From positions 95,108,001-95,172,000 of the forward strand of contig CM034546.1 of the NCBI GenBank assembly GCA_020055645.1: 64,000 nucleotides of DNA. The letters are read 5' to 3'. This DNA comes from Tomocerus qinae. Lineage: Eukaryota > Arthropoda > Collembola > Entomobryomorpha > Tomoceridae. Under the pieces are notes generated by a model, which was not told where the DNA came from, ran no database searches, and worked only from the letters and a program-made list of their open reading frames with translations. Positions 35,943-57,089 of this stretch are shown here, one piece after another. Every line of letters begins with the position of its first letter. Position 1 is the first letter of the stretch. Both the position numbers and the translations under genes were made by a program.

Positions 35943-36829
35943 ATGCTGTCGTGGGGCTGGAATTCTCAGCGCAACACTTCTAACTCAGAGTATGGGAGAT
36001 TTGACTTCGGAACTGCAAGAATGCGGTCACCGGCTAATGGGTTCGAATTGAGACAAGGAAACAATACATCCTACATTCACCAGATTCCGCATAACAACGG
36101 ATATCACACACCTGGATGCCCTCACAGTCATCAATATTTTGCTCAAGCCCAGAACCATCAGCCGGGTTGCCAGCATTGGACTCAGGGGCCAGAGCAAGGA
36201 GACTCTTCATTCACTCCGAAATTTACCGTGGAAGTTGGGAATGCTGCGGCAGCTGCGGCTCTCGGTGGAAATGTAAATCTGCAGGCTCAGTCTCAATACT
36301 ACATGCCCGAAAGTCCCAATGTTTCTGAGGGTGGAACATATAATCTTCTAAATTATCCCAACGAAAAATCTAATCAGCCAGAGAAAGCAGGATGTCAAAT
36401 TCCTATTCAAACTCAAAGTGCTTGCGTAAGACGCTACAAATATCTAGATCAGTATATATACATAACTACGCAAAATACATTAAAAATGTAAGATCAAATA
36501 CTAATCATTATATAAATTTTTAGGAACTTGGCAAAAAATCATCAATGAGGCAAGTTACAAAAAAATCTACATTGAAACAAAACATGAATTCTGTGTCAAT
36601 GACGGCAACAAACGTCCAATCTAACAGAGGTCAGAAGAAAAATATTCCGAATGCTCCGCGGTTTAAACTGTGTGGAAAATGCCCCAAGTGCAAAATTATT
36701 CAAGTGCCCGACGAAGGACCACTTGTCACTACCTTTCCAACAAACAAAGTTGGTCGCAATCAGAAGCTTCTGAATCAAAACTTCATGAACTTGGAAGGAA
36801 AAAATTTTAAGGCCACTGGGAATCTTTAA
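35943..36829 (+). CDS. Unrecognised protein, low-complexity with C-terminal CGKCPKC motif
   Basis: Two exons, 35943-36425 and 36524-36829, joined in phase 0 (TGC|GTAAGA ... TTTTTAG|GAACTT), encode about 262 aa. I chose the second ATG (MLSWGWNSQ) because the first, 39 bases upstream, runs through an acceptor-like TTTAAG directly before it. No signal peptide or membrane segment. The N-terminal two-thirds is rich in N, Q, G, P, S and H, with a PGCPHSHQ ... QPGCQHW histidine/cysteine repeat and an alanine run (GNAAAAAALGG). The C-terminal exon is basic (RQVTKKSTLKQ) and has LCGKCPKCKIIQVP, a possible small metal knuckle or disulfide site. AATAAA starts about 10 bases after the stop. I do not recognise the family. 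Confidence 0.7.
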
Positions 36830-37588: not shown

Positions 37589-38353
37589 ATGGCATCTTAT
37601 CATATTTTCTCGGTTGGAGTTATCTTACTATTGTGTATAGCAGTAGAGCAAATAGCCACTGAACGAAATTATCAAATGGAGTTTGCCAACAAACCTTTCG
37701 AAATCAACTCGGGTCGGAAAATATTTTTCGGAGCTGACAGACTGTCCAGAATGAGAAGAGCAAAATCTCAGTATATCGATAGTCGTAGCAAACGTTCACC
37801 CGATGGAGCACCGGATGAGGACAAACATCCTCCAACACCACCACCTCAAATGGTCCTGTACAGTGAAACGAATAAAGGCTGCAGCGTCGGCTGTTCAAAC
37901 TTTCCTCAGGTGAGTGAGGCACAACTTTTTAAGTCCACAAAGTATACTTTCTCATTTAACATTAGATATTGCCTTTAATTAAAATTTCTTCGCTCCTCCT
38001 ATTCATTTAGATCTGGAGAAGATTCCGAGGAGATCCTTCCATGAGGGTGCAATTGATGGATTACGACAATGAAGTCACAATAATCGAGACTAGAATGATA
38101 CCATGTTTGTACACAGTTGAAAATTCTGTTACTAAAGACCTATACTGATAGATAGTCTACTTATAGTTAAAAAGTCATGCGAACTGTGTAACTGTATTTA
38201 TCATTTTAATACATTGCAGTTCCCGCAGAAGATATCGATGGGCAGACTGGAGGAGGAAGTGATCCCATGGCCCGTGGGCCTTGGACCGAAGATCCTGGAT
38301 GCGAAAATTGTGGTATTGATGGTGAAGGCGAAGATGGAATTGTTGTCACGTAA
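37589..38353 (+). CDS. Secreted proline-rich cysteine-pair pro-peptide, member 1 (spliced)
   Basis: Three exons: 37589-37909, 38011-38104, 38220-38353 (about 182 aa). A hydrophobic signal peptide (FSVGVILLLCIAVEQIA) is followed by basic processing sites (SRMRRAK, SRSKRS). Next come a proline stretch (HPPTPPPQ), the cysteine pair CSVGC, then FPQ, an intron, and IWRRF, with MDYDNE downstream. The last exon is acidic and glycine-rich and carries a CENC pair. Exon 3 depends on a GTTTGT donor and is less certain; without it the frame stops at 38,146-38,148. The core CSxxCSxxxQxWRRF and the acidic MDYD match members 2 and 3 below. AATAAA occurs near 38,522. This looks like a secreted precursor cleaved by furin-like enzymes; function unknown, with antimicrobial or signalling peptide as options. 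Confidence 0.72.
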
Positions 38354-39419
38354 CGTAGGCCATTGGCTCGAGACTTAAGATCATGCATGCAGAAATTATG
38401 GTTGATGTTATGATAAGTAGTGGTAAATCATTCTTAATGCTCATTTGATTAATAAGCAGTTTTTAACGACTGTGTTGCATTGCTATGCACTAGCTGCCAT
38501 TAGCAGTAAATGAGACATACAATAAAGAAACAAAGCATTAATATCATCAAGCATCAATAATCTTCCCACTGCATGCTCATTCCCTGTATTTATTTTCATA
38601 TCGTACTCGTGCAATTTTTATCGATATTTTGTCAAAGCGAAAGTAAGAACCCTACAAATAATCAAATTCAAGCTAATAAAAGCTAAAACAGTCTTATCTT
38701 GGTTTCTCAAATTAACACAATCCAGATCGGCAACGCAGATCATTGTTACTGCCCCTACACAATACTGCACATATTTCGACCACCACATTCCTCTCATCAA
38801 TATTTTTAGAAATAGTAGTAAAACCTGTAGAATATGGGACAGAGAAACACAATGCTAGTCCTTTTTCAAAAGATGGAATTCTCCTGAATAATTTGTCTTT
38901 TCGAATTTTCATTTTTGCACATTAGTACTCTTTATTATTCGGACGGAGAACTATGGATCCTTATAAAACATAGTTTTATTTTGGAAAATTTTAAATTTCG
39001 CAATTTCTGTACACTACATCAAGGGCAATATTCATCAATTTGGGAAAGTTGAGGTAGGATGTAGGATAGACAGCATAATATCTGCACTGCAACTATAATG
39101 ACACCCTATATTTTTGATATTCTAAACTAACTACTTTCAAAATGAACAATAAAAACTATTGCAATACAATGAAACAGTGAACACTAAAATCACTTGGAAT
39201 TTCTATTTGGTTGGTTTATTGCATTAAATTTGTTTAGATTTAATTTCTACACTAAATAAACCGACGTAATGCATTCACTTTGTATTATAAGGCCGCACGC
39301 ACCTCATGGGCAAAATCGCTTAGGAGTATTAAAGTCTTTTAGGAGTGATTCCCTCGTAGGAGTCGATCCATATGTAACCATAAATGTTTAGACATCCCAT
39401 CAAAAAGTAAAACATTTTT
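38354..39419. other. Intergenic before the first HINE
   Basis: 3' UTR of the preceding gene, then AT-rich DNA. The last 130 bases have a different, less AT-rich texture (AAGGCCGCACGCACC, repeated TTAGGAGT) and may be unlisted repeat debris. Confidence 0.4.
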
Positions 39420-40404
39420 AGCTCTACTGATAAGGCAGCTTATAGAATCGCACAGTCCGTCCGTCCGTCCGTTCGTCTGTTACCACGATAACTCTCGAAC
39501 GCATTGACCGATTTTAATCATTTTAATCAAACTTGCCAAAAACATTGCCTATGCCCATAGCACAAAGCCTATTGAAAATGGGCCACATTGGTCCATAGGT
39601 TGCTGAGATGACGCGCGCTCACTTTGTCTTCATTTTGATAGTCAAAATGAAAATATGGCATTAAATGGACATTGAAAGTTCAATTGTGCTTCCTATGGAT
39701 TGTTAGCGGGATAGTACAAATTATTAAATGCCGCTTCGACCAAATTTAAGATTTTATAATAAAGTAAATAAATCCGGAGAATACCTATTATAGGACGGAA
39801 ATAAATCTATTTCGCATTTATATGTAAACTGATAGTCAAATTTACATTTTTAGAATTGGTTTTCTTTATGATAGTCAATATTAACCGATTTAGATTTTCT
39901 TTTGATTTTTATATTCCATATTAATCAATTTTGATTTTTTGTTTAATTAGATTCCCAATATTAATCAATCTTGATTTTTTGTTCATTTTGATAATTAATA
40001 TTAGTCAAATTAGATGGTTTGTTTATTTTTATACTCATTATTGTTTAACTTTGATGTTTTGTTTATTTTGATACTCAATATTATTCGATTTTGAATTTTT
40101 TTTATTTTGATACTCAGTATTATTCAATTTTGAATTTTTGTTTATTTTAATACTCAGTATTATTCTATTTTGATTTTTTGTTAACTTTGATACTCAATCT
40201 TAATCTATTTTGATTTTCTGTTGATTTTCATAGTAAGTAAACATTAATCAATTTTGATTTGCTGTTGATTTTCATATTCAATATTAATCAATTTTGATTT
40301 TCTGTTGATTTTCATGGTCAACATTAATCAATTTTGATTTTCTGTTGATTTTCATAGTAAACATTAATCAATTTTGATTTGCTGTTGATTTTCATAGTCA
40401 ACAT
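39420..40404 (+). mobile_element. HINE (Helentron-like non-autonomous element) copy 1, 3' truncated
   Basis: Starts TTTTTAGCTCTACTGATAAGG (T tract before A at 39,420). It then has the conserved 5' block: GCTTATAGAATCGCACAG, a CCGTCCGTCCGTCC run, ACGATAACTCTCGAACGCAT and GACGCGCGCTCACTTTGTC. The core is about 14 units of a 40-bp repeat of the form GATTTTCTGTTGATTTTCAT plus AGTCAACATTAATC (about 39,840-40,404). The 3' hairpin end found in other copies is missing here. Confidence 0.85.
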
Positions 40405-40784
40405 TTGTCGACGAATGTCGAAAACTACGAAGTAACCAGTGATGTATGTAGAAAGAGGAAGACGAAGTATAATTTAATTAGAGCAAAGGTAATTTTAATA
40501 ATTTATTTGTCCACGACTAGATATCCAAATGTTGGTTACATAAAATTAAAAATAACATAATTTTTACAATATAATTGGAAGTAATTTTATTTTCATACTG
40601 TATACATCAATAAGCATATGACAAATGGAAAGATGTACAAGCAATAAAAAGAATTATTCAATCAACAATTCAAGAATTTTTTCGACATTTTATTACAGGT
40701 AGTAGTGACTTTTGTTTATACCGGTATCGGTATCGTCATGGGCCAATTACATCATTCATGAAATCCACATGGTGTTTGTGTCCC
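40405..40784. other. Spacer and 3' UTR of secreted peptide member 2
   Basis: No gene of its own. On the minus strand an AATAAA at about 40,694-40,689 would serve the peptide gene that ends at 40,785. Confidence 0.5.
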
Positions 40785-41144
40785 TTATTTTTTGTCATCA
40801 TCGTAGTCCATTACGTCCATGCTGTTAAATCGTCTCCAAAATTGTGAATGTCCACTGCAGTAGATGGAACAAGGAAGAGGCTTGTTTGGAGGAAGGGGTG
40901 GGAATAATGGACTCGGGAATAATGGTTTATTTGGAGGTCTGTAGGAGCCTCGATTTATTGGAGATCTTAGTTGTTGATTCGGTTGTAGGCTATCATCTCT
41001 TCTGATTCGGAAGAGTCGGTTATGAAAAATGTTTCCGAAAGAAGCTGTCTCTCCCAGTGGTTGTGGATTTTGAGTACAAGTTGGTTTGAAGGACACCAGC
41101 ACAACGACCAAAGCTGCCAACACAAAACAACTCTGAGGAAGCAT
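40785..41144 (-). CDS. Secreted proline-rich cysteine-pair pro-peptide, member 2 (intronless)
   Basis: 119 aa in one exon. I chose the start at 41,144 rather than an in-frame ATG 48 bases upstream. It gives a clean signal peptide (SCFVLAALVVVLVSFKPTCT), and its context ATCAAAGAAAATGC matches member 3 base for base over CAAAGAAAATGC. Then follow RLFRIRRDD (basic processing site), LRSPINRG, a proline-rich stretch (KPLFPSPLFPPLPPNKPLP), the pair CSIYC, SGHSQFWRRF, and an acidic tail MDYDDDKK. It is the closest relative of member 3 (RLFRTKRD, RRSPINP, NPLFPS, CVFCSGNPQFWRR, YYDDD). It lies between two HINE fragments in opposite orientations. Function unknown; the positive proline-rich part recalls arthropod antimicrobial peptides, but that is analogy only. 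Confidence 0.82.
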   Translation of the reverse strand: MLPQSCFVLAALVVVLVSFKPTCTQNPQPLGETASFGNIFHNRLFRIRRDDSLQPNQQLRSPINRGSYRPPNKPLFPSPLFPPLPPNKPLPCSIYCSGHSQFWRRFNSMDVMDYDDDKK

Positions 41145-41514
41145 TTTCTTTGATACTGAATCACAAGATGCAGGCAGTTTTATGGTATCCAATTGGTTCT
41201 GACAGCAAAAGGCAGACTGCTCTTTTGAAAGAAAGGATTTTCCATTTTATGTGATAAATTATTGACAAAATGATAGCTTAAGGTCACTTCTTTGTGCATT
41301 GTTTTCCCTTACACCGTTTCTTACTCAGTAAACCGTGGTAAACGTTACACAAAAGTAGCGGTAAAAGAATAAACAAACACATGTCGGTATAAAATATAAT
41401 TTAGAATTAATCAGCTTTCGATAATACAATCATTTCTGAATGTTGTAATGACATTCATATTTTATTCGGTCATATTGCACAAATAGGCTTAAGGTAACTA
41501 TACTAAGCGTCAAA

Positions 41515-42057
41515 AAACTCAAAATTAATTAATATTGAGTATCAAAATAAACAAAAAATCAAAATTAATTAATATTGAGTCTAAAAATCAAAAGAAAATC
41601 AAAATTGATTAATATTGGGTATAAAAATCAAAAGAAACTGAGAAACTGCCATAATAATAAGCAATTTAAAAAATGCAAATTTGACTATCAATTTGCATAT
41701 AAATGCGAAATAGATTTATTTCCGTCCTATAATAAGTATTTTCCGGTTTTATTTACTTTATTATAAAATCTTAAAATCTGTCGAAGCGGAGTTAAATATT
41801 GTATACTATGAAGCTAACAAATCATAGGAAACACAATTGAACTTTCAATGTCCATTTAATGCCATATTTTCATTTTGACTATTAAAATGAAGACAAAGTG
41901 AGCGCGCGGCATCTCAGCCATGTGTCCCATTTTCAATAGGCTTTGCCACTAGTCCATATAGCCAAGTTTAGTTGAAATCCATCAATGTCTTCAAAAGTTA
42001 TCTCGTAAACGGACGGACTGCTGCAACATCAGCAATATCTAACTTATTCAGGCGAGC
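41515..42057 (-). mobile_element. HINE copy 2, reverse orientation, 3' truncated
   Basis: Read on the minus strand from 42,057 it begins GCTCGCCTGAATAA, passes CAGTCCGTCCGTTTAC and the GCGCGCTCACTTTGTC block, and ends in two to three tandem-repeat units near 41,515. Its 5' end has a diverged stretch between GAATAA and CAGTCCG. The hairpin end is missing. With copy 1 it forms an inverted pair around peptide gene 2. Confidence 0.8.
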
Positions 42058-43066
42058 ATTCCTTAACTCCTTCCAACACAGCAATCACATGATCACTGAC
42101 AATTAAACTCAATATTTCTCGTAAAGTATTTCGTAAAGGGTGGCAAAACAATAATATATGCTAAAATAGCGATGAATTAGAATTGCAATGAGATGACAAA
42201 CAACGCAACAATTTAATTCAGATTTCTGATTTTAGTAACTGGTAAAGGTAAGAAGCAATCATTGAGTGAGATAATGATCGAAGTTGGTGATGGATAATAA
42301 TGCATGGTGCGTGATGATGCAGACAAATGTTGGAATATAGAACATATTATAGTATTTACATTACGCAAACTTGGGTTGCGTTGGTGGCAGAAACTTGATT
42401 TCAATACGCCCCACGGCCCCAGTGATATGCCAAGCTGCTTCAGGCTTCTAATGCTAGTGTCGACGACCAATAAATAAATTCATCCGAGGTCAAAGATCAT
42501 ATCAACGCCATTTTGTCATCATCTCCGCTAGAAGTTTGCCATTGTCCCATGAACACATGCTGAAAGTTTCATTGGATTATCTCAATCCATTTGAAATTTA
42601 TTGTGACCATAAATTCACCCACAGACAGACATCAAGGGTGAAATGAAAAAGCTAGCGGTTCATACCGTTGCGCTACTTATTAGGATCAAAGTTTGCGTAA
42701 TAATTTGTCACTGTCACTCGATCGTCTGGTCGTCCACTATTAGTTGGAGCAAATAGGAGCAAGTATATCTTTGCAGGGGAATAACTTATTTCAAATCTGT
42801 TTTTTGCATAATATGGTAGCACATATATTCAGGAGGTACCATTTATCATTACAATTCAAATTTGACGCATCCCCTGGTTTACAGAAGGTGAGGCAGACAG
42901 TAGAAAGTGCAACAGGTGAGGCAGGCAGCGAATAGCATAGAGGACTGTGGATTTGCTGTGCTATCCAAGAGACTACGCACCGCGCTGGTGCTAACATGCT
43001 CTGAAACTGAGGGTAGACAAATGAAATGTAAAATAGCTGGACTTTAATGCAACGATTAGTGGAATA
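42058..43066. other. Intergenic, repeat-like debris
   Basis: No gene seen. Around 42,480-42,640, read on the minus strand, a GTCTGTCTGTGGG motif precedes a conserved-looking block (AATGGATTGAGATAATCC, AAACTTTCAGCATG). Its arrangement is like the 5' block of the HINEs but the sequence differs, so it may be a related family. Confidence 0.4.
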
Positions 43067-43203
43067 AAATTTTCGTTTCATTGCATTAATGCCACTTCAT
43101 TGTAGCCCAAACGTGATAATTGTCTAAACAAATACAATTTTCGTTTCATTGCAACAATATAGTCACTCCATTGTAACCCAAACGTAATAATTGTCTAAAC
43201 AAA
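43067..43203 (+). repeat. Tandem duplication, unit about 75 bp
   Basis: The words TTTTCGTTTCATTGCA and CCATTGTAACCCAAACGT followed by ATAATTGTCTAAACAAA occur twice in a row with a few differences (ATTG-TAGCCC versus ATTGTAACCC; CGTGATAATT versus CGTAATAATT). Confidence 0.75.
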
Positions 43204-43679
43204 GAGGATCTTCGTCCATTGTCATTAGTTAAATACACTTTGCAACATTTTAACGTGAAAATTGACAATCGTTATTCATCAGAGGTGAGTGCAGTTAATT
43301 ATAATGATAACGCTCTTCCCGGCCTTTTTTGGGATACGTGCTTGGTGGTGAGTGCAGATTAATTAAGGTGTGTGTTGACAACCACCTGGTGAGGATTTGC
43401 ATTCATTATTTGGGTTACACATTTTACCGTCAAAACAGGACAGCTTAATCGGGTATATTCCTAATGGTAATGTATTTGTTTTGTAACAGCTGACATGCCG
43501 ACATTCACATGGGGAAGAATTGACGTTAATTATTTGGGATAAACATTTTATCGTGGAACTTTAAAATGCAATTTTCAAATGTCAACATGGGTGCCTCTTT
43601 TATTCGTCTTTCCACCAAAGCAAATTGTCGGTCACAAAGGAGAAAGCTATGACCCGTGTACATGAACTTTTTTGGCACT
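43204..43679. other. Intergenic, imperfect direct repeat
   Basis: Two diverged copies of a segment containing CATT(C/A)ATTATTTGGG and ACA(C)ATTTTA(C/T)CGT at about 43,390-43,435 and 43,500-43,560. No gene seen. Confidence 0.4.
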
Positions 43680-43681
43680 TG

Positions 43682-45254
43682 TTAAATAGTTTCAAATTGA
43701 TTAAAATCTTGACTGAATACTAGAAACCTACTGATAGTGCCTCGGAAAAATATCCTAAAGCTACAAGATAGCGTTGTTTTGGCCAACACAGCGGTCTGAC
43801 CAGGCAACTTATGTTCTCTCCTCTCCCGCTCGCAAAAACTCATAATTTTTAATACAAAATTGAAATATTTCACTGGCACCTCGATTTCCTTCGCGTTTGT
43901 GCCACAGACACATCGTTGTAATATCTTTGTCTCCTCGATGAATTGCTTCACTGTAGCAGAGATACTTTCTTTTGTAAGTGTTCACTATTAGTTAAATTCG
44001 AAAAGCTAATAACCTGAAAAATAATTGAAAAAATTAAAATAAATGTTTAAATTGATAGTTATAAAATCTTAATAACTTAATGGTTATACTACTAACCGCT
44101 TGCATGTCAACAGAAATTACTATAATATTTGGATTTATTTTACTTATTCGATATCTCGATGATCTTCTCGAATAGCTGCGAAACCATTTTTTGATTTCAG
44201 ATGATGGTCCACGGAAGTAAGCCACAGTACATTTAGCTGTTCTTCATCATCTAGATTTTGCTCATTGAGATTAGCAATTGACGTAAAAATCTCATCGCAA
44301 GTATCACACGTATCACTCCTAGGTTGGCGAAACAAAAAATTGAGTTCCTTTATGGTGTCGTAGTAAACTTTTTCATGCGAAAACACTTCTTCCCCTAATG
44401 CGTCGCAATATAGGCTCAACATTCTGGCAACATTCAATTGTTTTCTTAAATCCTCTCTTAGAGGATTCCCGGCCTAAGAACAAAATCCTGATTTTTATAT
44501 TATACTGATTCATTAAAGCACATCGTTATTAGGGTTAGTTTACATTTCTGGAGTAATGGCTTATTTCGGTCGGAAACGATCTAATGTGGGAAACAATGTT
44601 TGCCTTGATACTAGCGTCGTGCCTGTGTGGTCTGCTTAAGTGCATGCCTCGTTGGTCAATAGCTGCCAAATTTCCTTTACCCATTTTGTTCTGTACGGTC
44701 CTAAGTCTCCAATCCGTAATTCCGAATACTGTAAGAAATGTCTTTCGACATACTTGTAATTTTACGTTATTCTCGTCAGTTATCCAAAAGTAATAAGTTG
44801 CATTTAGTCTATGTAATTCTCCATTGGTTGTACGATGTGCGATCTCTTTTTTCGTGACTAATTGCATAATTGACGTTGACTGTAAGTTCCAGTTTCCTAG
44901 TCCCCAAAATTCTTGAAATATTGCCAATTTCCTCTGATGAGAAATTATGCACCTGGTTTCTGGCAACCAGACTCGCAAAAGTATTCCTTTTAAAATTTCA
45001 ATCCATTTTTAGTTAGACTAATTTTTAGTTTAATTTTCTATCAAAGGAAGACGCAGAAAGCTATTATTACTCACTTCACAAGGAGGCGAAGGCGGCTCAT
45101 TTTCTTGTCGGTTTCTGCCCGAATATGGGTTTTTTGAATTCCTCATTAGCTTAGCCTGAGTATCAGACCAATTTAAAACGCTAATCTTTCTTCGTCTTCC
45201 AACATTTTGATGCAGCAATAGCTTTTGAGAGAGATTTATGTTACATAGTTCCAT
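43682..45254 (-). pseudogene. Decayed copy of a repeat-encoded (transposon-type) protein family
   Basis: Pieces in order on the minus strand: RRRKISVLNWSDTQAKLMRN and a PPSPPC end (45,254-45,060); RKLAIFQEFWGLGNW, KTFLTVFGITDWRLRT, SHYSRN (44,978-44,544); a 70-bp intron 44,474-44,543 with GTAAAC/TTAG; then RKQLNVARMLSLYC, RQPRSDTCDTCDEI, HHLKSKNGFAAIREDHR (to 44,144); NPNIIVISVDMQAV (about 44,130); CLWHKREGNRGASEI (about 43,900). I know this order of motifs from a multi-copy protein family in arthropod and other invertebrate genomes, of unproven function and probably transposon-derived. The frame breaks near 44,950 and 44,150 and again before the last piece, so I call it broken. Family name unknown to me. 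Confidence 0.65.
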
Positions 45255-46245
45255 CTTTGCAAAATTTCAACACTCAACATGCCCGATGATAAAATGGCTC
45301 GGCAATGACTTAGAAACATGGAATACATCTAACTACAGTTTTGTAAATTCAAAATTCACGGAGACGGGGGTTAAAATTTGTCGATTATTTTATTTTGAGT
45401 ACTTAGTTACGGAATTAATTCTTTTTAGCAACCCAGATCAGTCATTTTTCCGCTCAGCAACTCATATAAAGTTAATAAAATTTTATTGATTGTAATGTTT
45501 CCATGCAAGCACGTGGTTTACTGATATTTAGATATCAACTGCCCGGTGGATATCAAATTTGCATTCTAATGATAACTACTGATTGTGGCTGAATACATGT
45601 GCTACCATTTGCAAAAAGCAGATTTGAAACAAGTTATGTCGTTCCAAAAATATGCGAGCATATTATTATCGAAGGACAACCAGAACACCAGAAAACTTTT
45701 TTTAATCTCCCACTTCGATCCTGCGTATACGCCTGTTTGCCACCAGTTTATTAATTTGTTTTCCATCAACCAGCTAATGTTCGCATTAAAGGTTTATAAT
45801 GTTATTGCTGCAAATGTCGTTCGATTTCTCTTCTCAAATACTTTTATACATCCATTGAAACTATTCGACTTAATCTAAATTTTCTAGATATGACCTTATA
45901 TCCATCTAAATAAATTTAGACATTCATTGCAGATATTTATATTATTACATAACCAAATTAGTTTCAATGTCATTTTATGATTTTCATTTCTCATTTTTAT
46001 CAGCTCCTGTAAGTAAAAGCATTGACATAATGACACGGACTCTCGAAATATTCTGGCAGAAGCATAGTCTACTATTTACAATGCGCTGCTTTACTATAAT
46101 ATATTATAACTGATTACCATATTGATGTTAGTCAAAAATGACATCGGGGCAAGCGCCCCCCCCCCTCGCTGCGGCCTTGTCTGCCTCATGGAAATGTATA
46201 GGAAATGTCGCCGTGTGACGTCACAAATCGGTTACATTACAAAAA
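45255..46245. other. Intergenic
   Basis: No gene supported. A 97-codon open frame at 45,585-45,878 has no recognisable motif or splice context. The last 120 bases (GC-richer, with a C8 run at 46,158-46,165) border a HINE end. Confidence 0.45.
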
Positions 46246-48033
46246 CCTACAGCAAGCCGTAACAGAAGCTCGCCTGAGTAAAGGGGACCGTGTGCACATT
46301 TTTGGTAAATCAATTGTAGAAAAAATTATGATTTTGATTATTAAAGTAAAAATTAATTCAAATTCAAATTATTCATAATCCAAAAAATAACTATCAAAAT
46401 CAACAGAAAATCAAAATAGATTAACGTTGACTATGATAATAAAAAGAAAATCAAAATAGATTAATGTCGACTATCAAAATCGACAGAAAATCAAAATAGA
46501 TTAATGTTGACTCTATCAAAATCAACAGAAAATCGAAATAAAATTAATGTTGACTATAATAGGCAATAGAAAATCGAAATAAAATTAATGTTGACTATAA
46601 TAGGCAATAGAAAATCAAAATTGATTAATATTGTGTATCAAAATCAACAGAAAATCAAAATCGGTTAATATTTTTAAAATAAACAGGAATTCGAAAAATG
46701 TAAATTTGGCTATCAATTTGAATATAAATGCGAAATAGATTTATTTCTGTCCTATAATGAATTTTCTCGGTTTTAGCTCGCCTGATAAGGCAGCTTATAG
46801 AATCGCACAGTCCGTCCGTCCGTCCGTTCGTCTGTTACCACGATAACTTTCGAACGCATTGACCGATTTTGATCAAACTTGCCAAAAACATTGTCTATGC
46901 CCATAGGACAAAGCCTATTGAAAATGGACCACATTGGTCCATAGGTTGCTGAGATGACGCGCGCTCACTTTGTCTTCATTTTGATAGTCAAAATGAAAAT
47001 GTGGCATTAAATGGACATTAAAAGTTCAATTGTGCTTCCTATGGATTGTTAGCGGGATAGTACAAAATATTAAATGCCGCTTCGACCTAATTTAAGATTT
47101 TATAATAAAGTAAATAAATCCGGTAAATACCTATTAAAGGAAAGAAATAAATCTATTTTGCATTTATATGCAAACTGATAGTTAAATTTACATTTTTAGA
47201 ATTGGTTTTCTTTATGATAGTCAATATTAACCGATTTTGATTTTCTTTTGATTTTTATATTCCATATTAATCAATTTTGATTTTTTGTTTAATTAGATTC
47301 CCAATATTAATCAATTTTGATTTTTTGTTCATTTTGATATTTAATATAGTCAATTTTGTTTATTTTGATACCAATTATTGTTTAACTTTGATGTTTTGTT
47401 TATTTTGATACTCAGTATTATTCAATTTTGAATTTTTGTTTATTTTAATACTCAGTATTATTCTATTTTGATTTTTTGTTAATTTTGATACTCAATCATA
47501 ATCAATTTTGATGTTCTGTTGATTTTCATAGTCAACAGTTATCTATTTTGATTTTCTGCTGATTTTCATAGTCAACAATTATCTAATTCGACTTTTTGTT
47601 GATTTTCATAGTCAACAATTATCTATTTTGATTTTCTGTTGATTTAAATAGTCAATAATAATCTATTTTGATTTGCTGTTGAATTTCATAGCCAAAAATA
47701 ATTTATTTTGATTTTCTGTTGATTTTAATAGTCAATATTAATCTATTTTGATTTTCTGTTAATGTTGAAGATTTTTCCAATAATTATAAATATTGATCTA
47801 GTTTGAATTACATTGTACTAATCAAAATAAATTTATTATTCCTCCAAAAATGTGTACATGATCCCCTTCACTCAGGCGAGCTTCTGTTACGGCTTGCCGT
47901 AGGTTTTATTTACGTTATTATAAAATCTTAAATTTGGTAGAAGCGGAGTTAAATATTTTATACTATTCATTTATAACAATTTATAGGAAACACAATTGAA
48001 ATTTTTATGGCCCATTTTCTACTTTGACTATCA
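46246..48033 (-). mobile_element. HINE copy 3 (reverse), split by a nested HINE
   Basis: Two parts, 46,246-46,774 and 47,904-48,033, both on the minus strand. The first begins at the 3' hairpin end: read on the minus strand it is ACTCAGGCGAGCTTCTGTTA then CGGCTTGCTGTAGG. It contains the 40-bp array (about 46,380-46,680) and the block GAAATAGATTTATTTCTGTC. The second resumes exactly where the first stops (ATTTACGTTATTATAAAATC ... CTACTTTGACTATCAAA). The 5' end is lost near 48,033. Confidence 0.85.
46775..47903 (+). mobile_element. HINE copy 4, complete, nested in copy 3
   Basis: Complete 1,129-bp element. The 5' end is AGCTCGCCTGATAAGGCAGC; then come the CCGTCC run, the conserved block, a 40-bp repeat array (about 47,220-47,770), and the 3' end CACTCAGGCGAGCTTCTGTT followed by hairpin ACGGCTTGCCGT and AGG. 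TTTT stands on both sides (46,771-46,774 and 47,904-47,907). The same site in copy 2 has a single TTTT (CGGTTTTATTTAC), so the ends are fixed by an empty-site comparison. Subterminal AGCTCGCCTGA and TCAGGCGAGCT are inverted copies. 5' subterminal inverted repeat, tandem core, 3' hairpin and T-tract target are the known layout of Helentron-associated elements. Confidence 0.88.
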
Positions 48034-48846
48034 AATAAAAACGAACTTATCCCAACCTTGAACAACATGCTGTGCTAATCTAAATAATTCAAACTACCAC
48101 ATAGTAGGAGTTGCAAGTTGCAAATAATTGTCAGATTGTACAATTTTAAAATGATTCAAAAACCATTTCAACCGGAAGAATAAATAAATGGCATAAATAA
48201 ATTTTTAAATAAATAAATGTTTTTAAATGGCATAAATGTTTTTTTTAAATTGCGTCATATTCTGATTATCCAGAAATTTAATTTTTATCATGTTTTCTTT
48301 GCGTCTCCCGATGAGTCCGATCTTTTAAGGTTTTTACCTTTAATATATCTCTATTTCTCCATTATTATAATACCTTTAATACATTGCAGGGCCGCAACCA
48401 GAAAAAAATTTCGGGGAAGGGGGCCGACAAATTATAAGTAAAAATATATACTATTTTTGGTTTTCGAAGCAAAAATTCCTTTCTTTCCTTGGATTTCGCC
48501 TTGGCTGCGGCACTGATACATTGTTATGCAAATGTTATGGAACAGTGTGAGGTATTCGTAGAATAATGAAGACATTTTTTAAGGAAAATGGTTGGGGAAT
48601 AGAAAATGACTTTTATCTATAGAATTTATAAATGGAAAATATGTCCATGGAATAAAGGAAAGAATACTTTGGTGGAATAGATCCTTTATTGCAAATGAAT
48701 ATATTATCGGATATATATAGAGATATACAAATTAATTGGAGATACATTGTAAAGGTGTTCTTTCGCTTCTATTCAAAATTCCAGCATCAACGTCCAAACC
48801 ATTCTAATATTGTTCAGTTCGGTGGCCCTGGTGTTGGCTTTGGCCT
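48034..48846. other. Intergenic and 3' UTR of peptide member 3
   Basis: No gene seen. On the minus strand AATAAA at about 48,689-48,684 lies 158 bases after the member 3 stop. A GC-richer patch at 48,388-48,430 (GGGCCGCAACC, GGGGAAGGGGGCC) is unlike its surroundings and may be repeat debris. Confidence 0.45.
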
Positions 48847-49224
48847 CTATTTCAAAGAGTACCAATCAACGAATACATCAGGCCTATCGTCGTCGTAGTA
48901 CGCAGGCATCATTCTTCGTCTCCAAAATTGGGGGTTTCCACTGCAGAAGACACAAGGACGGTTGGGTCTGGGTGGTGGCGGTGGTCGACTCGGGAAAAGT
49001 GGATTATTTGAAGGTCTCTGGATTGGATTGATTGGAGATCTTCGTTGTCGATTTTGATAGCTCTGTGGTAGGGTATCTCTTTTTGTTCTGAAAAGTCGAC
49101 TTTGGATAACGTTTTCGATGTTCGATGAACCCTGGTATCCAGGCGGTTGTGTATCCTGGTGCGTTGTCTGGAAGGTCAGTAGAGCAAGTAAAGTTACCAA
49201 CACGAAAATACCGAGAGGAGGCAT
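48847..49224 (-). CDS. Secreted proline-rich cysteine-pair pro-peptide, member 3 (intronless)
   Basis: 125 aa, one exon. Signal peptide GIFVLVTLLALLTFQTTHQ; processing sites RLFRTKRD and NRQRRSPINP; a proline/arginine-rich stretch (SRPPPPPRPNRP); the pair CVFC; then SGNPQFWRRR, an acidic patch (YYDDDRPD) and a longer tail ending DWYSLK. The ATG context CAAAGAAAATGC equals that of member 2. A TATAAATA box lies at 49,301-49,294, about 70 bases upstream of the ATG, so this looks like a functional promoter and not a dead copy. Cysteine spacing is C-x2-C here against C-x3-C in members 1 and 2. The gene ends 145 bases before a 25-base HINE end fragment and sits just left of the Helitron. Function unknown. 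Confidence 0.83.
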   Translation of the reverse strand: MPPLGIFVLVTLLALLTFQTTHQDTQPPGYQGSSNIENVIQSRLFRTKRDTLPQSYQNRQRRSPINPIQRPSNNPLFPSRPPPPPRPNRPCVFCSGNPQFWRRRMMPAYYDDDRPDVFVDWYSLK

Positions 49225-49293: not shown

Positions 49294-49301
49294 TATTTAT
49301 A
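49294..49301 (-). promoter_or_regulatory. TATA box of peptide member 3
   Basis: TATAAATA on the minus strand, within TTTTAGTATAAATAGTC, 70 bases upstream of the start codon. The position suits a leader of about 40 bases. Confidence 0.6.
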
Positions 49302-53267: not shown

Positions 53268-54552
53268 AGCTCGCCTGAAAAGGCAGCTTATAGAATCGCA
53301 CAGTCCGTCCGTCCGTGCGTCCGTCCGTGCGTCCGTTTACACGATAACTTTTGAAGACATTGATGGATTTCAACTAAACTTGGCAAAAACATTGCCTATA
53401 GACCTGTGACAAAGCCTATTGAAAATGGGCCACATTGGTCCACAGGTTGCTGAGATGACGCGCGCTCACTTTGTCTTCATTTTGATAGTCAAAATGAAAA
53501 TGTGACATTAAATGGACATTAAAAGTTCAAATGTGCTTCCTATGGATTGTTAGCGGGATAGTACAAAATATTAAATGCCGCTTCGACCAAATTTGAAATT
53601 TTATAATAAAGTAAATAAAACCGGAAAATACCTATTATAGGACGGAAATAAATCTATTTCGCATTTATATGCAAATAGATAGTTAAATTTATATTTTTCG
53701 AATTACTTTTCATTATGATAGCTAACATTAATCAATTTTGATTTTCTGTTGATTTTCATAGTCAACATTAATAAATTTTGATTTTCTGTTGCTTTTCATA
53801 GTCAACGGTAATCTGCTTTGATTTTCTGTTGCTTTTCATAGTCAACGTTAATCAATTTTGATTTACCTATTTTGATTTTCTGTTGATTTTCATAGTTGGC
53901 AATTACCTATTTTGATTTTCTGCTGACTTTCATAGTCAGCAACTACCTATTTTGATTTTCTATAGATTTTCATAGTCATCACTTATCTATTTTGATTTTC
54001 TGTTGATTTTCATAGTCAACATTAATCTATTTCAAACTTCTGTTGATTTTCATTGTCAATCTTAATCTATTTTGATTTTCTGTTGATTTTCATAGTCAAC
54101 AATTATCGATTTTGATTTTCTGTTAGTTTTCATAGTCAACAATTATCGATTTTGATTTTCTGTTGATTTTCAATGTCAATCTTAATTTATTTTGAATTTC
54201 TGTTGATTTTCAACATCAATCTTAATCTATTTTGATTTTCTGTTGATTTTGATTGTCAAAATTCATCTATTTTGATTTTCTGCTGATTTTGGAAGTCAAC
54301 ATTAATCTATATTGATTTTCTATTGCTTTTGATGGTCAAAATGAATCTGATTTTATTTTCTGTTATTTTTCATAGTCAATGTTAATCTGCTTTGGTTTTC
54401 TGTTGACTTTGATGGTCAACATTCATACATTTTGATTTTGATACTCAATATTAACCAATAGATATGAAAATAAATCTATTTCTATTATTCTACTAAAACT
54501 GTGTACACGGTTCCCTTCACTTAGGCGAGCTTCTGTTACGGCTTGCCGTAGG
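53268..54552 (+). mobile_element. HINE copy 5, complete
   Basis: 1,285 bp from AGCTCGCCTGAAAAGGCAGC to ACGGCTTGCCGTAGG, preceded and followed by T tracts. It has the CCGTCC run with CCGTGCGTCC variants, the conserved block, and the longest 40-bp array of the window (about 53,700-54,450; roughly 19 units). Confidence 0.87.
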
Positions 54553-54558
54553 TTTATT

Positions 54559-55195
54559 AGCTCGCCTGAATAAGGCAGCTTATAGAACCGCACAGTCCGT
54601 CCGTCCGTCCGTCCGTCCGTCCGTTAGTGAACGCGATAACTTTCGAACGCATTAATAGATTTTGACCAAACTTGGCGAAAACAATGCCTATGGACCACTG
54701 ACAACCCCTATTGAAAATAGGCCACATTGGTCCACTGGTTACCAAGATACCACGCGCTCACTTTGTCTTCATTTTGATAGCCAAAGTAGAAAATGGGCAT
54801 TAAAAATTTCAATTGCGTTTCCCATTAATTGTTAGCATATAGTATAAAACATTTCATACCGCTTCTAACGGACTTTAAACTTCATAGTAAAGCAACTACA
54901 ACCGGAATGTACCGCTTAAAGGATATATTTTATATTTCTTTTGATTTTTGGAGTCAGTATTAATCGATTTTGATTTCCTTTTAATTTTGAAAGTCAAGGT
55001 AAATCTATTTTGACTTTCTGTTGATTTTAATAATCAACATTAATCTATTCTGATTTTGTGTTGATTTTGGTAGCCAACATTAATCTATTTTGATTTTCTG
55101 TTGATTCTGATAGGCAACATTAATCTATTTTGATTTTCTGTTGATTTTCTTTGTCAACAATAATCAAATTTGATTTTCTATAGATTTTAAATATA
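54559..55195 (+). mobile_element. HINE copy 6, 3' truncated
   Basis: Starts AGCTCGCCTGAATAAGGCAG only six bases after copy 5 ends. The CCGTCC run is uninterrupted (seven units). About six core units; stops near 55,195 without the hairpin end. Confidence 0.82.
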
Positions 55196-55219
55196 AGTTA
55201 CTTCAAACTGTTTAGTTTT

Positions 55220-55648
55220 AGCTCGCCTGAATAAGGCAGCTTATAGAACCGCACAGTCTGTCCGTACTTCCGTACGTCCGTCCGTACTTCCGTCCGTCCG
55301 TCCCCATGATAACTTTCGAACACAAACACGGAAGTTGACCAAACTTGGCAATAACAATACATATGGACTACTGACGATCCCTATTGATTTTGGTCGAAAT
55401 CGGTCCATTAGTTGCTGAGATACCGCGCGCTCACTTTGTCTTCATTTTGATAGTCAAAGTGGGAAATGGGCAATAAAAAAGTTCAATTGCGTTTCCTATA
55501 AATTGTTGGCCAAATAGTATAAAATATTTTACTCCGCTTCCTATCTACCAAATTTAAAATTTTATAATAAAGCAAATAAAACCGGAAAATAACTATTAGA
55601 CGATGGAAATAAATCTGTTTTGGATTTATATGCAAATTGATAGTTAAA
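55220..55648 (+). mobile_element. HINE copy 7, 5' part
   Basis: AGCTCGCCTGAATAAGGCAG, then a CCGTACTTCCGTACGTCC variant run and the conserved block. It stops at GCAAATTGATAGTTAAAG, where unrelated DNA begins. Confidence 0.8.
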
Positions 55649-56270
55649 GGATCCTTTGGGACGGTGGCCTTAGTTTGGCCTAAAAATTTTCAATGACCAC
55701 ATGAGACATAGGGGTTGTAATTTTAACCACAGATAGTTTCACTCATTAGCTACTCTTACAGCCAAAATTGCGATGGAGCTCTCTTCCGTTACCGAGATAT
55801 CGGGGTTCTACCAAAGCATGTCTCCCATTTAAATATCATTGAAATGTACATTTTTAAGCTTTCGATGCATAAAAATTGCGACCACATGACATTTTAGTAA
55901 AAAAATATTTTTTTTTGTGGTAGAAGAACATGTCACCTACGTTTTAAAAAAAAATTACGAAAGAGCTCTCTCTACTTTTCAAGAAATTAATTTTTAATGA
56001 CAAGAACTTCATTTTGACCTTTAAAATGTAAAGCGTATACAAAATAATACACTGCCACTGCCTATAATGCAAAAATACAAAGTGTTCTATATTATTGAGG
56101 CATAGGTCAAGATGAGTACACATGGCTATGACATGACTATGACGGTTGTCATAGTCATGTGTACTCATATTGGGCATAGATACATAAATGGAGAAATGAA
56201 AAGGTGAAAAATGGATCGAGTGGACGGTGACGGGGAATGATGATTTACCGTTAAGGGCCTGGTTCCTAAG
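55649..56270. other. Unrelated insert between two HINE segments, with a hairpin
   Basis: About 620 bases with no match to the HINE body. Contains ACATGACTATGAC-GGTT-GTCATAGTCATGT (56,131-56,160), a perfect 13-bp stem, extended by ATGAGTACACATG / CATGTGTACTCAT. No gene seen. The flanking HINE segments overlap in content, so this is not a clean insertion into one element. Confidence 0.5.
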
Positions 56271-57089
56271 GGCGGGATAGTATAAAATATTTCACTCCGC
56301 TTCTACCAAATTTAAGATTTTAGAGTAAAGCAAATAAAACCGGAAAGTAACTATAAGAGGACGGAAATAAATCTATTTCGCATTTATATTCAATTTTATA
56401 TTCAAACTTGCATTATTCCAATTTCTATTGATTTTCATTATTAATATTCACCGATTTTTATTCTCTTTAGATTTTCATAGTCAACATTATTCAATTTTGA
56501 TTTTATGTTGATTTTCATAGTCAACATTATTCAATTTTGATTTTATGTTGATTTTCATAGTCAAAATTATTCAATTTTGAATTTATGTTGATTTTTATAG
56601 TCAACATTCATCAATATTGAATTTATGTTGATTTGTATATCCAACATTCATCAATTTTGAATTTATGTTGATTTTTATAGTCAACATTCATCAATTTTGA
56701 CTTTATGTTGATTTTCATAGTCATCATTCATCAATTTTGATTTTATGTTGATTTTCATTGTCAACATTATTCAATTTTGAATTTATGTTGATTTTCATAG
56801 TCAACATTAATTAATTTTTATTTTCGGTTGATTTTTCAAATAATACAACTTCGCTTTGGTTGCGTTATAATTGTATTAGTTAAAGATGACGTCAGTTTTG
56901 ATATATCCTTATAATATCAATGTCTGGATTTTTAATATGTCGTAGCTACATATATAAACACTCAATTCTGAAAGTTTGATCAAAATCTGTACGCTCGGTT
57001 TTGTGTTACAACGGGATTACTATTCGTCTACCAAAATGTGTACATGGTAACCTTTACTCAGGCGAGCTTCTGTTACGGCTTGCTGTAGG
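56271..57089 (+). mobile_element. HINE copy 8, 5' truncated, with 3' end
   Basis: Begins inside the conserved block (GGGATAGTATAAAATATTTC), carries a homogenised core (units of AATTTATGTTGATTTTTATA-type, about 56,400-56,840) and ends TCAGGCGAGCTTCTGTTACG then GCTTGCTGTAGG. Confidence 0.82.

Follow-up and report, generated by a model that had tools for sequence, protein, structure and literature searches.

The three genes at the locus

The stretch of DNA described here, called the window, comprises 64,000 nucleotides of the springtail Tomocerus qinae (positions 95108001-95172000 of contig CM034546.1, hereafter C1, in an assembly of 334,443,149 bases in 115 contigs), and it carries three small genes, m1, m2 and m3, whose products resemble secreted proline-rich precursors. 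A preliminary description had grouped them as one peptide family; the three open reading frames (ORFs) lie where it had placed them, with start codons at 37589 on the forward strand (m1) and at 41144 (m2) and 49224 (m3) on the reverse strand. The common features that it had named were found as well, namely a signal-like N-terminus, a proline-rich stretch, C-x2/3-C, Q[F/I]WRR and a tail that is acidic and contains Tyr (Table 1). Its basic processing sites stood in part: the furin-type motif R-x-[KR]-R is present in m1 (RMRR, RSKR), m2 (RIRR) and m3 (RTKR, RQRR), but the second site given for m2, LRSPIN, departs from the pattern. In five members the N-terminus reaches a best 12-residue Kyte-Doolittle mean of 2.9-3.4, a value that measures hydropathy and does not come from a signal-peptide predictor. 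Modelling of m3 by AlphaFold from the single sequence, with no alignment, gave a mean predicted local distance difference test (pLDDT) score of 57, the N-terminal helix alone being confident. The gene m1 requires intron 1, at the acceptor of which homology to m2 and m3 restarts exactly (IWRR, from 38011), and it is given here as a three-exon model. The third exon is a prediction because the donor of intron 2 is weak, and an alternative end lies within exon 2, with a stop after 38145.

The relatedness of the three genes, as claimed beforehand, goes beyond chance. A hidden Markov model (HMM) built from full-length m2 and m3 scores spliced m1 at 28.7 bits, a score reached by none of 20,000 m1 shuffles (18,660 of which received a reported score, the best being 12.2 bits). 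Of the 3,569 fragments given by six-frame translation of the window, two, m2 and m3, contain the pattern C.{2,3}CS[NG].[PS]Q[FI]WRR; m1 is unmatched because an intron splits its copy. The m2 and m3 proteins are 50% identical, and their DNA similarity spans from about 10 nt upstream of the ATG through the WRR codons, with a ratio of nonsynonymous to synonymous differences (pN/pS) of 0.59 (bootstrap 0.43-0.83); similarity confined in this way to the coding sequence (CDS) and some 10 nt upstream, together with this ratio, indicates that both are coding and constrained. It could be argued that chance ORFs have been mistaken for a family, given short low-complexity stretches and some members, described below, that are joined solely at E 0.01-1. 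Yet the m2/m3 pN/pS is below 1, the DNA similarity is limited to the CDS, the shuffle controls speak against it, and six exact copies of a promoter word all stand at family genes, so this explanation has next to no credibility and is already contradicted.

Table 1. Parts of m1, m2 and m3, with positions in the window
Gene	Feature	Position	Strand	Remark
m1	Gene	37589-38353	+	three-exon model, 182 amino acids (aa)
m1	Exon 1	37589..37909	+	signal-like N-terminus, RMRR, RSKR, Pro-rich stretch, CSVGCSNFPQ
m1	Site RMRR	37748-37759	+	
m1	Site RSKR	37784-37795	+	
m1	Intron 1	37910-38010	+	GTGAGT..TTTAG (GT..AG); required
m1	Exon 2	38011..38104	+	IWRRFRGDPSMRVQLMDYDNEVTIIETRMIP..; m2/m3 homology resumes at acceptor
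m1	Intron 2	38105-38219	+	model; weak donor GTTTGT
m1	Exon 3	38220..38353	+	model, predicted; acidic tail with CENC, stop TAA 38351-38353
m1	AATAAA poly(A) signal	38521..38526	+	
m2	CDS	40785..41144	-	single reading frame, 119 aa; Pro-rich cationic cargo
m2	Site RIRR	41009-40998	-	
m2	CSIYCSGHSQFWRR segment	40830..40871	-	
m2	TATA-like element CATAAAAT	41244..41251	-	some 100 nt before the ATG; followed downstream by CAGTC
m2	AATAAA	40689..40694	-	
m3	CDS	48847..49224	-	125 aa in a single frame; cargo rich in Pro and Arg, with one PRP; sites RTKR, RQRR
m3	CVFCSGNPQFWRR segment	48916..48954	-	
m3	TATAAA box	49296..49301	-	TCAGTC repeats begin 18 and 27 nt downstream
m3	AATAAA	48685..48690	-	

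A larger family in the genome

Searching this genome, a check proposed in the preliminary description and carried out here with member proteins as queries, placed m1-m3 within a larger set of at least 18 loci. Protein queries were run with m3, m2 and m1 and then, in a chain, with the proteins at 8.157, 45.32, 8.739, 76.34 and 42.17 Mb of C1 (members other than m1-m4 are named by such positions), and m3 was repeated at a loose threshold; the searches yielded one connected set, to which the last three added no new convincing locus. The total is a lower bound from a search that scores best candidates and ignores introns. Thirteen loci are open with an ATG (m1, m2, m3, m4 and, on C1, 8.157, 8.644, 8.739, 42.17, 42.19, 45.32, 74.15, 76.34 and 133.5 Mb), the 6.575-Mb copy is open with ATC replacing the ATG, and four are broken, by frame (44.51 and 9.802 Mb) or by stops (64.97 and 5.815 Mb). 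The gene m4, found with the m3 and m2 queries at C5:3.66 Mb, is 78% identical to m2. When m1 was the genome query, it alone was matched up to E = 1. With L032 as the query, the matches were its own locus and, at E 2, the broken copy at 44.51 Mb. Loci L030, L067 and L069 (stops, weak matches) and L036 and L037 (unrelated tandem repeats) were excluded from the members, and L039-L044 and the weak places C1:85.58, C2:27.83 and C3:37.87 Mb were likewise left out of the count.

Seventeen of the 18 loci are on C1, which makes up 42% of the assembly (binomial P about 4e-6 for independent loci, and clustered copies are not independent). The genes at 42.17 and 42.19 Mb (L062 and L063; C1:42.166 and 42.192 Mb) encode identical proteins about 26 kb apart, and represent either a recent duplication or an assembly artefact. 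The genes m2 and m4 share a duplicated block (833 aligned bp, 84.6%), and the last 62 nt of the 5′ untranslated region upstream of the ATG are identical in m2 (window 41145-41206) and m4 (L003), the proteins differing by 22%. AT-rich repeats, direct and inverted, flank m2 on both sides and also lie between m2 and m3; carriage of m2 by a transposon, considered because of the inverted copies, was set aside, since a promoter and poly(A) signals lie within the m2/m4 block itself. The sequence TCAAAGAAAATG was seen upstream of m2, m3, m4 and the 44.51-Mb copy.

A common precursor layout with variable cargo

The 14 aligned proteins of the open members share a layout, or chassis, that consists of a hydrophobic N-terminus read as a signal peptide, a short propiece, a furin-type site, a short Pro-rich cargo with basic residues after it, and lastly a short tail rich in Tyr. 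R-x-[KR]-R is present in 12 of the 14, the 42-Mb pair having RVAR (RxxR) in its place, and at the level of motifs this agrees with the earlier proposal of processed extracellular peptides. Two such sites occur in m1, m3, 45.32 and 8.157; m2 has the first site and lacks the second, and m4 lacks the first and has the second. The tails include MDYDDD, AYYDDD, MMYDDDYYY, EMYEDDYYF and DLYDGEFYY, and that of m1 then continues with more sequence. Most genes read as a single coding exon that follows a core promoter of TATA type, and the precursors are 78-196 aa long.

Cargo statistics refer to 13 rows, i.e., the 14 open members minus the identical 42.19 copy, with the four broken loci left out and the ATG-less 6.575 copy included, and cargo ends are assumed to lie at the furin-type (QQLR in m2) and basic sites. 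Proline accounts for 19-32% of the cargo in all 13 rows, which is within the 14-49% range that the available part of a review gives for proline-rich antimicrobial peptides (PrAMPs), some of which are described there as carrying PRP motifs. The net charge of the cargo is +3 to +7 in 12 of the rows, at least one PRP motif is present in nine, and the tail is net negative in 12. Seven distinct members have a linear cargo of Pro/Arg type that bears PRP motifs, for example QLGTGIGGFPIYARPISIPRPRPPPRPKPRR (76.34) and GNNWASILPPGLVYSPHRPRPPPRPKSRR (42.17), and the cargo of 8.157 contains five GYIHTSPFPIPPEY tandem units with no R-x-[KR]-R between the repeats.

The Cys pair and WRR, taken at first for the core of the family, were not borne out as such, and mark a four-gene group: the cargo Cys pair is confined to m1-m4, and the other nine rows have a linear Pro/Arg-rich or tandemly repeated cargo. 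The WRR of m1-m4 aligns with the RRF, RRL, RRI or RRM that precedes the tail in most relatives, and it is therefore read as a basic boundary before the tail and not as a separate core.

Links between the Cys-bearing and linear groups

The link between the two groups was controlled by block shuffles, 4,000 per protein. A profile of the seven linear members scores m2 at 22.8, m4 at 23.4 and 45.32 at 45.5 bits, scores that none of the shuffles reached. Conversely, the m2-m4 profile scores 74.15 at 27.5, 8.644 at 22.2, 76.34 at 17.5, 45.32 at 34.0, 8.157 at 26.7 and m1 at 28.7 bits, again with no shuffle as high; as judged from these profiles, 45.32 bridges the Cys and linear groups. In a maximum-likelihood tree of the 13 rows, a branch supported at 86/87, which is under the star level of the tool, separates m1-m4 from the others, and the m1 branch is long and unsure.

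Upstream regions were compared for 14 genes, a set that excludes 42.19, 5.815, 9.802 and 64.97. TATAAA lies 77-113 nt upstream of the start in 11 of them, the exceptions being m1, m2 and m4, and CATAAAAT stands in m2 and m4. The promoter word WATCGTATAAAAGGGAAACT was derived from the family promoters; genome-wide it recurs exactly at six places, all of them upstream of linear members. With two mismatches it occurs at eight further places, three of which are upstream of members (8.644, 9.802 and 76.34).

Sequence evolution and identity of the family

Ratios of nonsynonymous to synonymous rates (dN/dS, by NG86) are 0.45 for m2/m3, 0.62 for m3/m4 and 0.25-0.53 for five Cys-less, linear pairs; for the recent pair m2/m4 the ratio is 1.37 (pN/pS bootstrap 0.69-3.24), which is not clearly above 1. 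Mean pairwise identity among six linear members is lowest in the N-terminal part of the cargo (0.32), and amounts to 0.45 in the propiece, 0.61 from PRPKP to the end and 0.67 in the signal. The picture that these sequences suggest is a frame that is kept while the cargo changes. The rapid evolution supposed in the preliminary description is borne out in part: what changes fast is the cargo, in both length and sequence; the dN/dS of the linear pairs and m2/m3 does not show it, and the m2/m4 value does not decide in its favour.

The family had not been recognized from the window, and it matched no named one: no member gave a Pfam match above the curated cut-off (sub-cut-off matches at E 0.094 and 0.38 were to unrelated families), the four proteins searched against NCBIfam gave none above cut-off (one unrelated family at E 0.19), and a PDB sequence search returned weak, unrelated matches, none convincing. 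No homologue was confirmed in IMG/VR or in GTDB genomes, as expected because the family is an animal one. In one open library, no paper containing the string QFWRR was found, and a search for proline-rich antimicrobial peptides (AMPs) of Collembola gave one paper on the subject by title, which lists five other families. A word search of the accessible part of an invertebrate PrAMP review gave no mention of springtails or Collembola. A homology-based survey of collembolan AMPs from 2023 covered five species, Tomocerus not among them, and in the part available it lists diapausin, Alo, diptericin, defensin and cecropin and suspects further, unseen families (PMC10051947). Its AMPs resemble the present family in being small secreted candidate defence peptides, and differ in that none is described there as proline-rich. 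Literature was otherwise drawn, likewise in part, from PMC3890508, PMC10432511, PMC12693562, PMC11311677, PMC7824276 and PMC11678341.

Proposed function and alternative readings

On the sequences, m1-m3 are probably members of an undescribed multigene family of secreted precursors that would work like PrAMPs, with an antibacterial function that we infer. Of the defence or signalling role first suggested, defence is the best supported, and signalling is kept as a rival. A furin-like protease would free the cargo. Until then the acidic tail would mask the cationic cargo and so keep it from acting; the RR/WRR boundary is where this tail may be trimmed. The freed cargo would enter the haemolymph or the gut and act on bacteria. 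For members rich in PRP the probable mode is that of oncocin or apidaecin, in which the peptide is taken up and inhibits the ribosome. Because a Cys pair is present, the cargo of m2-m4 (and m1) can be read as a Pro-rich arm followed by a small loop closed by a putative disulfide, an arrangement as in arasins and penaeidins. The activity of m1, with its introns and non-cationic cargo, may have been lost or changed. We also put forward, tentatively and with considerable doubt, that in a hexapod host-defence family one gene chassis, made up of the core promoter, the signal peptide, the furin site and the acidic tail with its Tyr residues, has been kept as the cargo was exchanged among linear PRP, five-fold repeat and disulfide-looped forms, and that m1, having lost its charge, may have moved from killing to signalling.

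The comparison with known systems was made by description, not by alignment. Like insect linear PrAMPs (apidaecin, oncocin/pyrrhocoricin, drosocin and lebocin), the family has a precursor predicted to be secreted, a propiece and, in most members, a Pro/Arg-rich cationic cargo with PRP; unlike them, it has a conserved, Tyr-rich and mostly acidic tail after the cargo, and it has no Pfam match. Multi-copy precursors are described, in the portions available, for apidaecin and riptocin, and the tandem repeats of 8.157 are comparable to these, although without the furin-type motif between them. Arasins and penaeidins are crustacean AMPs that are Pro-rich and contain Cys; in m2-m4, as in these, a Pro-rich part at the N-terminal end of the cargo precedes a C-terminal part that carries Cys. 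The excerpts at hand give two disulfides (four Cys) for the arasin C-terminal region and six cysteines in three disulfides for the penaeidin C-terminal domain, whereas m2-m4 have one Cys pair (C-x2/3-C) and a Tyr tail.

Several observations weigh against the antibacterial reading or against the unity of the family on which it builds. The m1 cargo has a net charge of -1 and no PRP, the 8.644 tail is net +1, and none of the PrAMP models in Pfam and NCBIfam was matched. PRP-rich segments are found in non-antimicrobial secreted proteins too. The linear profile is weak on m3 (9.9 bits, with 3 of 4,000 shuffles as high) and misses m1 (761 of 3,533 shuffles reach it) and 8.157 (1,883 of 3,987); the m2-m4 profile is weak on 8.739, 133.5 and 6.575 (3, 3 and 8 shuffles as high) and misses 42.17 (2,598 of 4,000), and by these scores m1 is tied to the linear group solely via intermediates. 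With up to two mismatches, WATCGTATAAAAGGGAAACT is found at 14 places and its reversed control at 20, so that it is no commoner and solely the exact matches carry weight. Immune control through kappaB is unsupported, such sites being present upstream of 1 of the 14 genes, with 23 of 200 Markov controls as high and no enrichment.

If the genes encoded signalling precursors, neuropeptide or cytokine-like, the Cys loop with QFWRR (in m1-m4) or the acidic Tyr tail would bind a receptor and the Pro-rich part would be a spacer. The dibasic and furin sites would suit such precursors, as would the C..WRR segment of m2/m3, which is among the best kept (pN 0.16 vs 0.29 overall), the Tyr tail kept across aligned members, and m1, which retains the layout without a cationic cargo; an acidic Tyr tail is also a possible sulfotyrosine motif. 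We nevertheless regard signalling as unlikely: no amidation Gly precedes the basic sites and, by reading, no identical short peptide is repeated save in 8.157, nine of the 13 rows are without the Cys/WRR segment, near-duplicate genes have variable cargo, and the protein libraries give no match over cut-off.

Somewhat less likely again are secreted structural or lubricating proline-rich proteins of saliva, cuticle or egg coat, in which the acidic Tyr tail would serve cross-linking. The high Pro content, the Tyr-rich tails (YYY, DDYYF) and the tandem-repeat member 8.157 would be at home there, but the precursors are short, their mostly cationic cargo lies between furin-type sites and an acidic piece and carries PRP motifs, and such propieces would be unexpected in structural proteins of this size. 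Duplication, the concentration of loci on C1 and the m2/m4 dN/dS of 1.37 could likewise point to fast-evolving reproductive or venom-like effectors, a reading made very improbable by the lack of a Cys framework or library match and by the lower ratios of m2/m3 and the five linear pairs.

Genomic setting

The DNA of the window is animal, with a GC content of 31-38% in 4-kb steps and exons of myosin VIIa, SPC25 and copine. AT-rich repeats that contain tandem units of 40 bp lie at 39433-40478, 41491-41925, 46383-47966 and 53280-56835. ORFs at 43682-45008 on the reverse strand, which we take to resemble a transposon-derived arthropod protein, gave no Pfam match above cut-off. At 35943-36829 on the forward strand lies what is probably a gene of two exons, in which His/Cys-rich and CGKCPKC stretches occur; it gave no Pfam match.

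Elsewhere on C1, locus L022 (C1:36666000-36675900) holds a long piece of mitochondrial sequence in which the COX1 frame is full-length. This piece adjoins a frame named gag-like by reading, and is either a nuclear insert or a mis-join. Its order is I, -Q, M, ND2, W, -C, -Y, COX1, L(UUR), COX2, K, D, ATP6, COX3, G, ND3, A, where COX1 was named by Pfam, the other proteins by reading and the tRNAs by ARAGORN; an extra Leu call within ND2 is probably spurious. Up to A the order equals the Pancrustacea model, which the available part of the literature gives as the commonest among springtails too, and beyond A it departs from it, with trnE on the other strand and one tRNA of anticodon tct called but untyped. 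TTAGG arrays in the assembly gave 400 overlapping matches, against 0 for the reversed control. A nematode origin, which compact introns and a divergent myosin VIIa had first suggested, was abandoned on the strength of this gene order and these arrays.

Significance for springtails

Springtails live among soil microbes, and, provided that the lineage is correct, the genes described here would be a first AMP-like family of proline-rich type in these animals. The family would offer 12 distinct open precursors (13 with an ATG, two of them identical) of a class that in insects inhibits the ribosome of bacteria. Moreover, linear, repeated and Cys-bearing cargos would form a natural series on one chassis, in which the contribution of each cargo type is directly testable.

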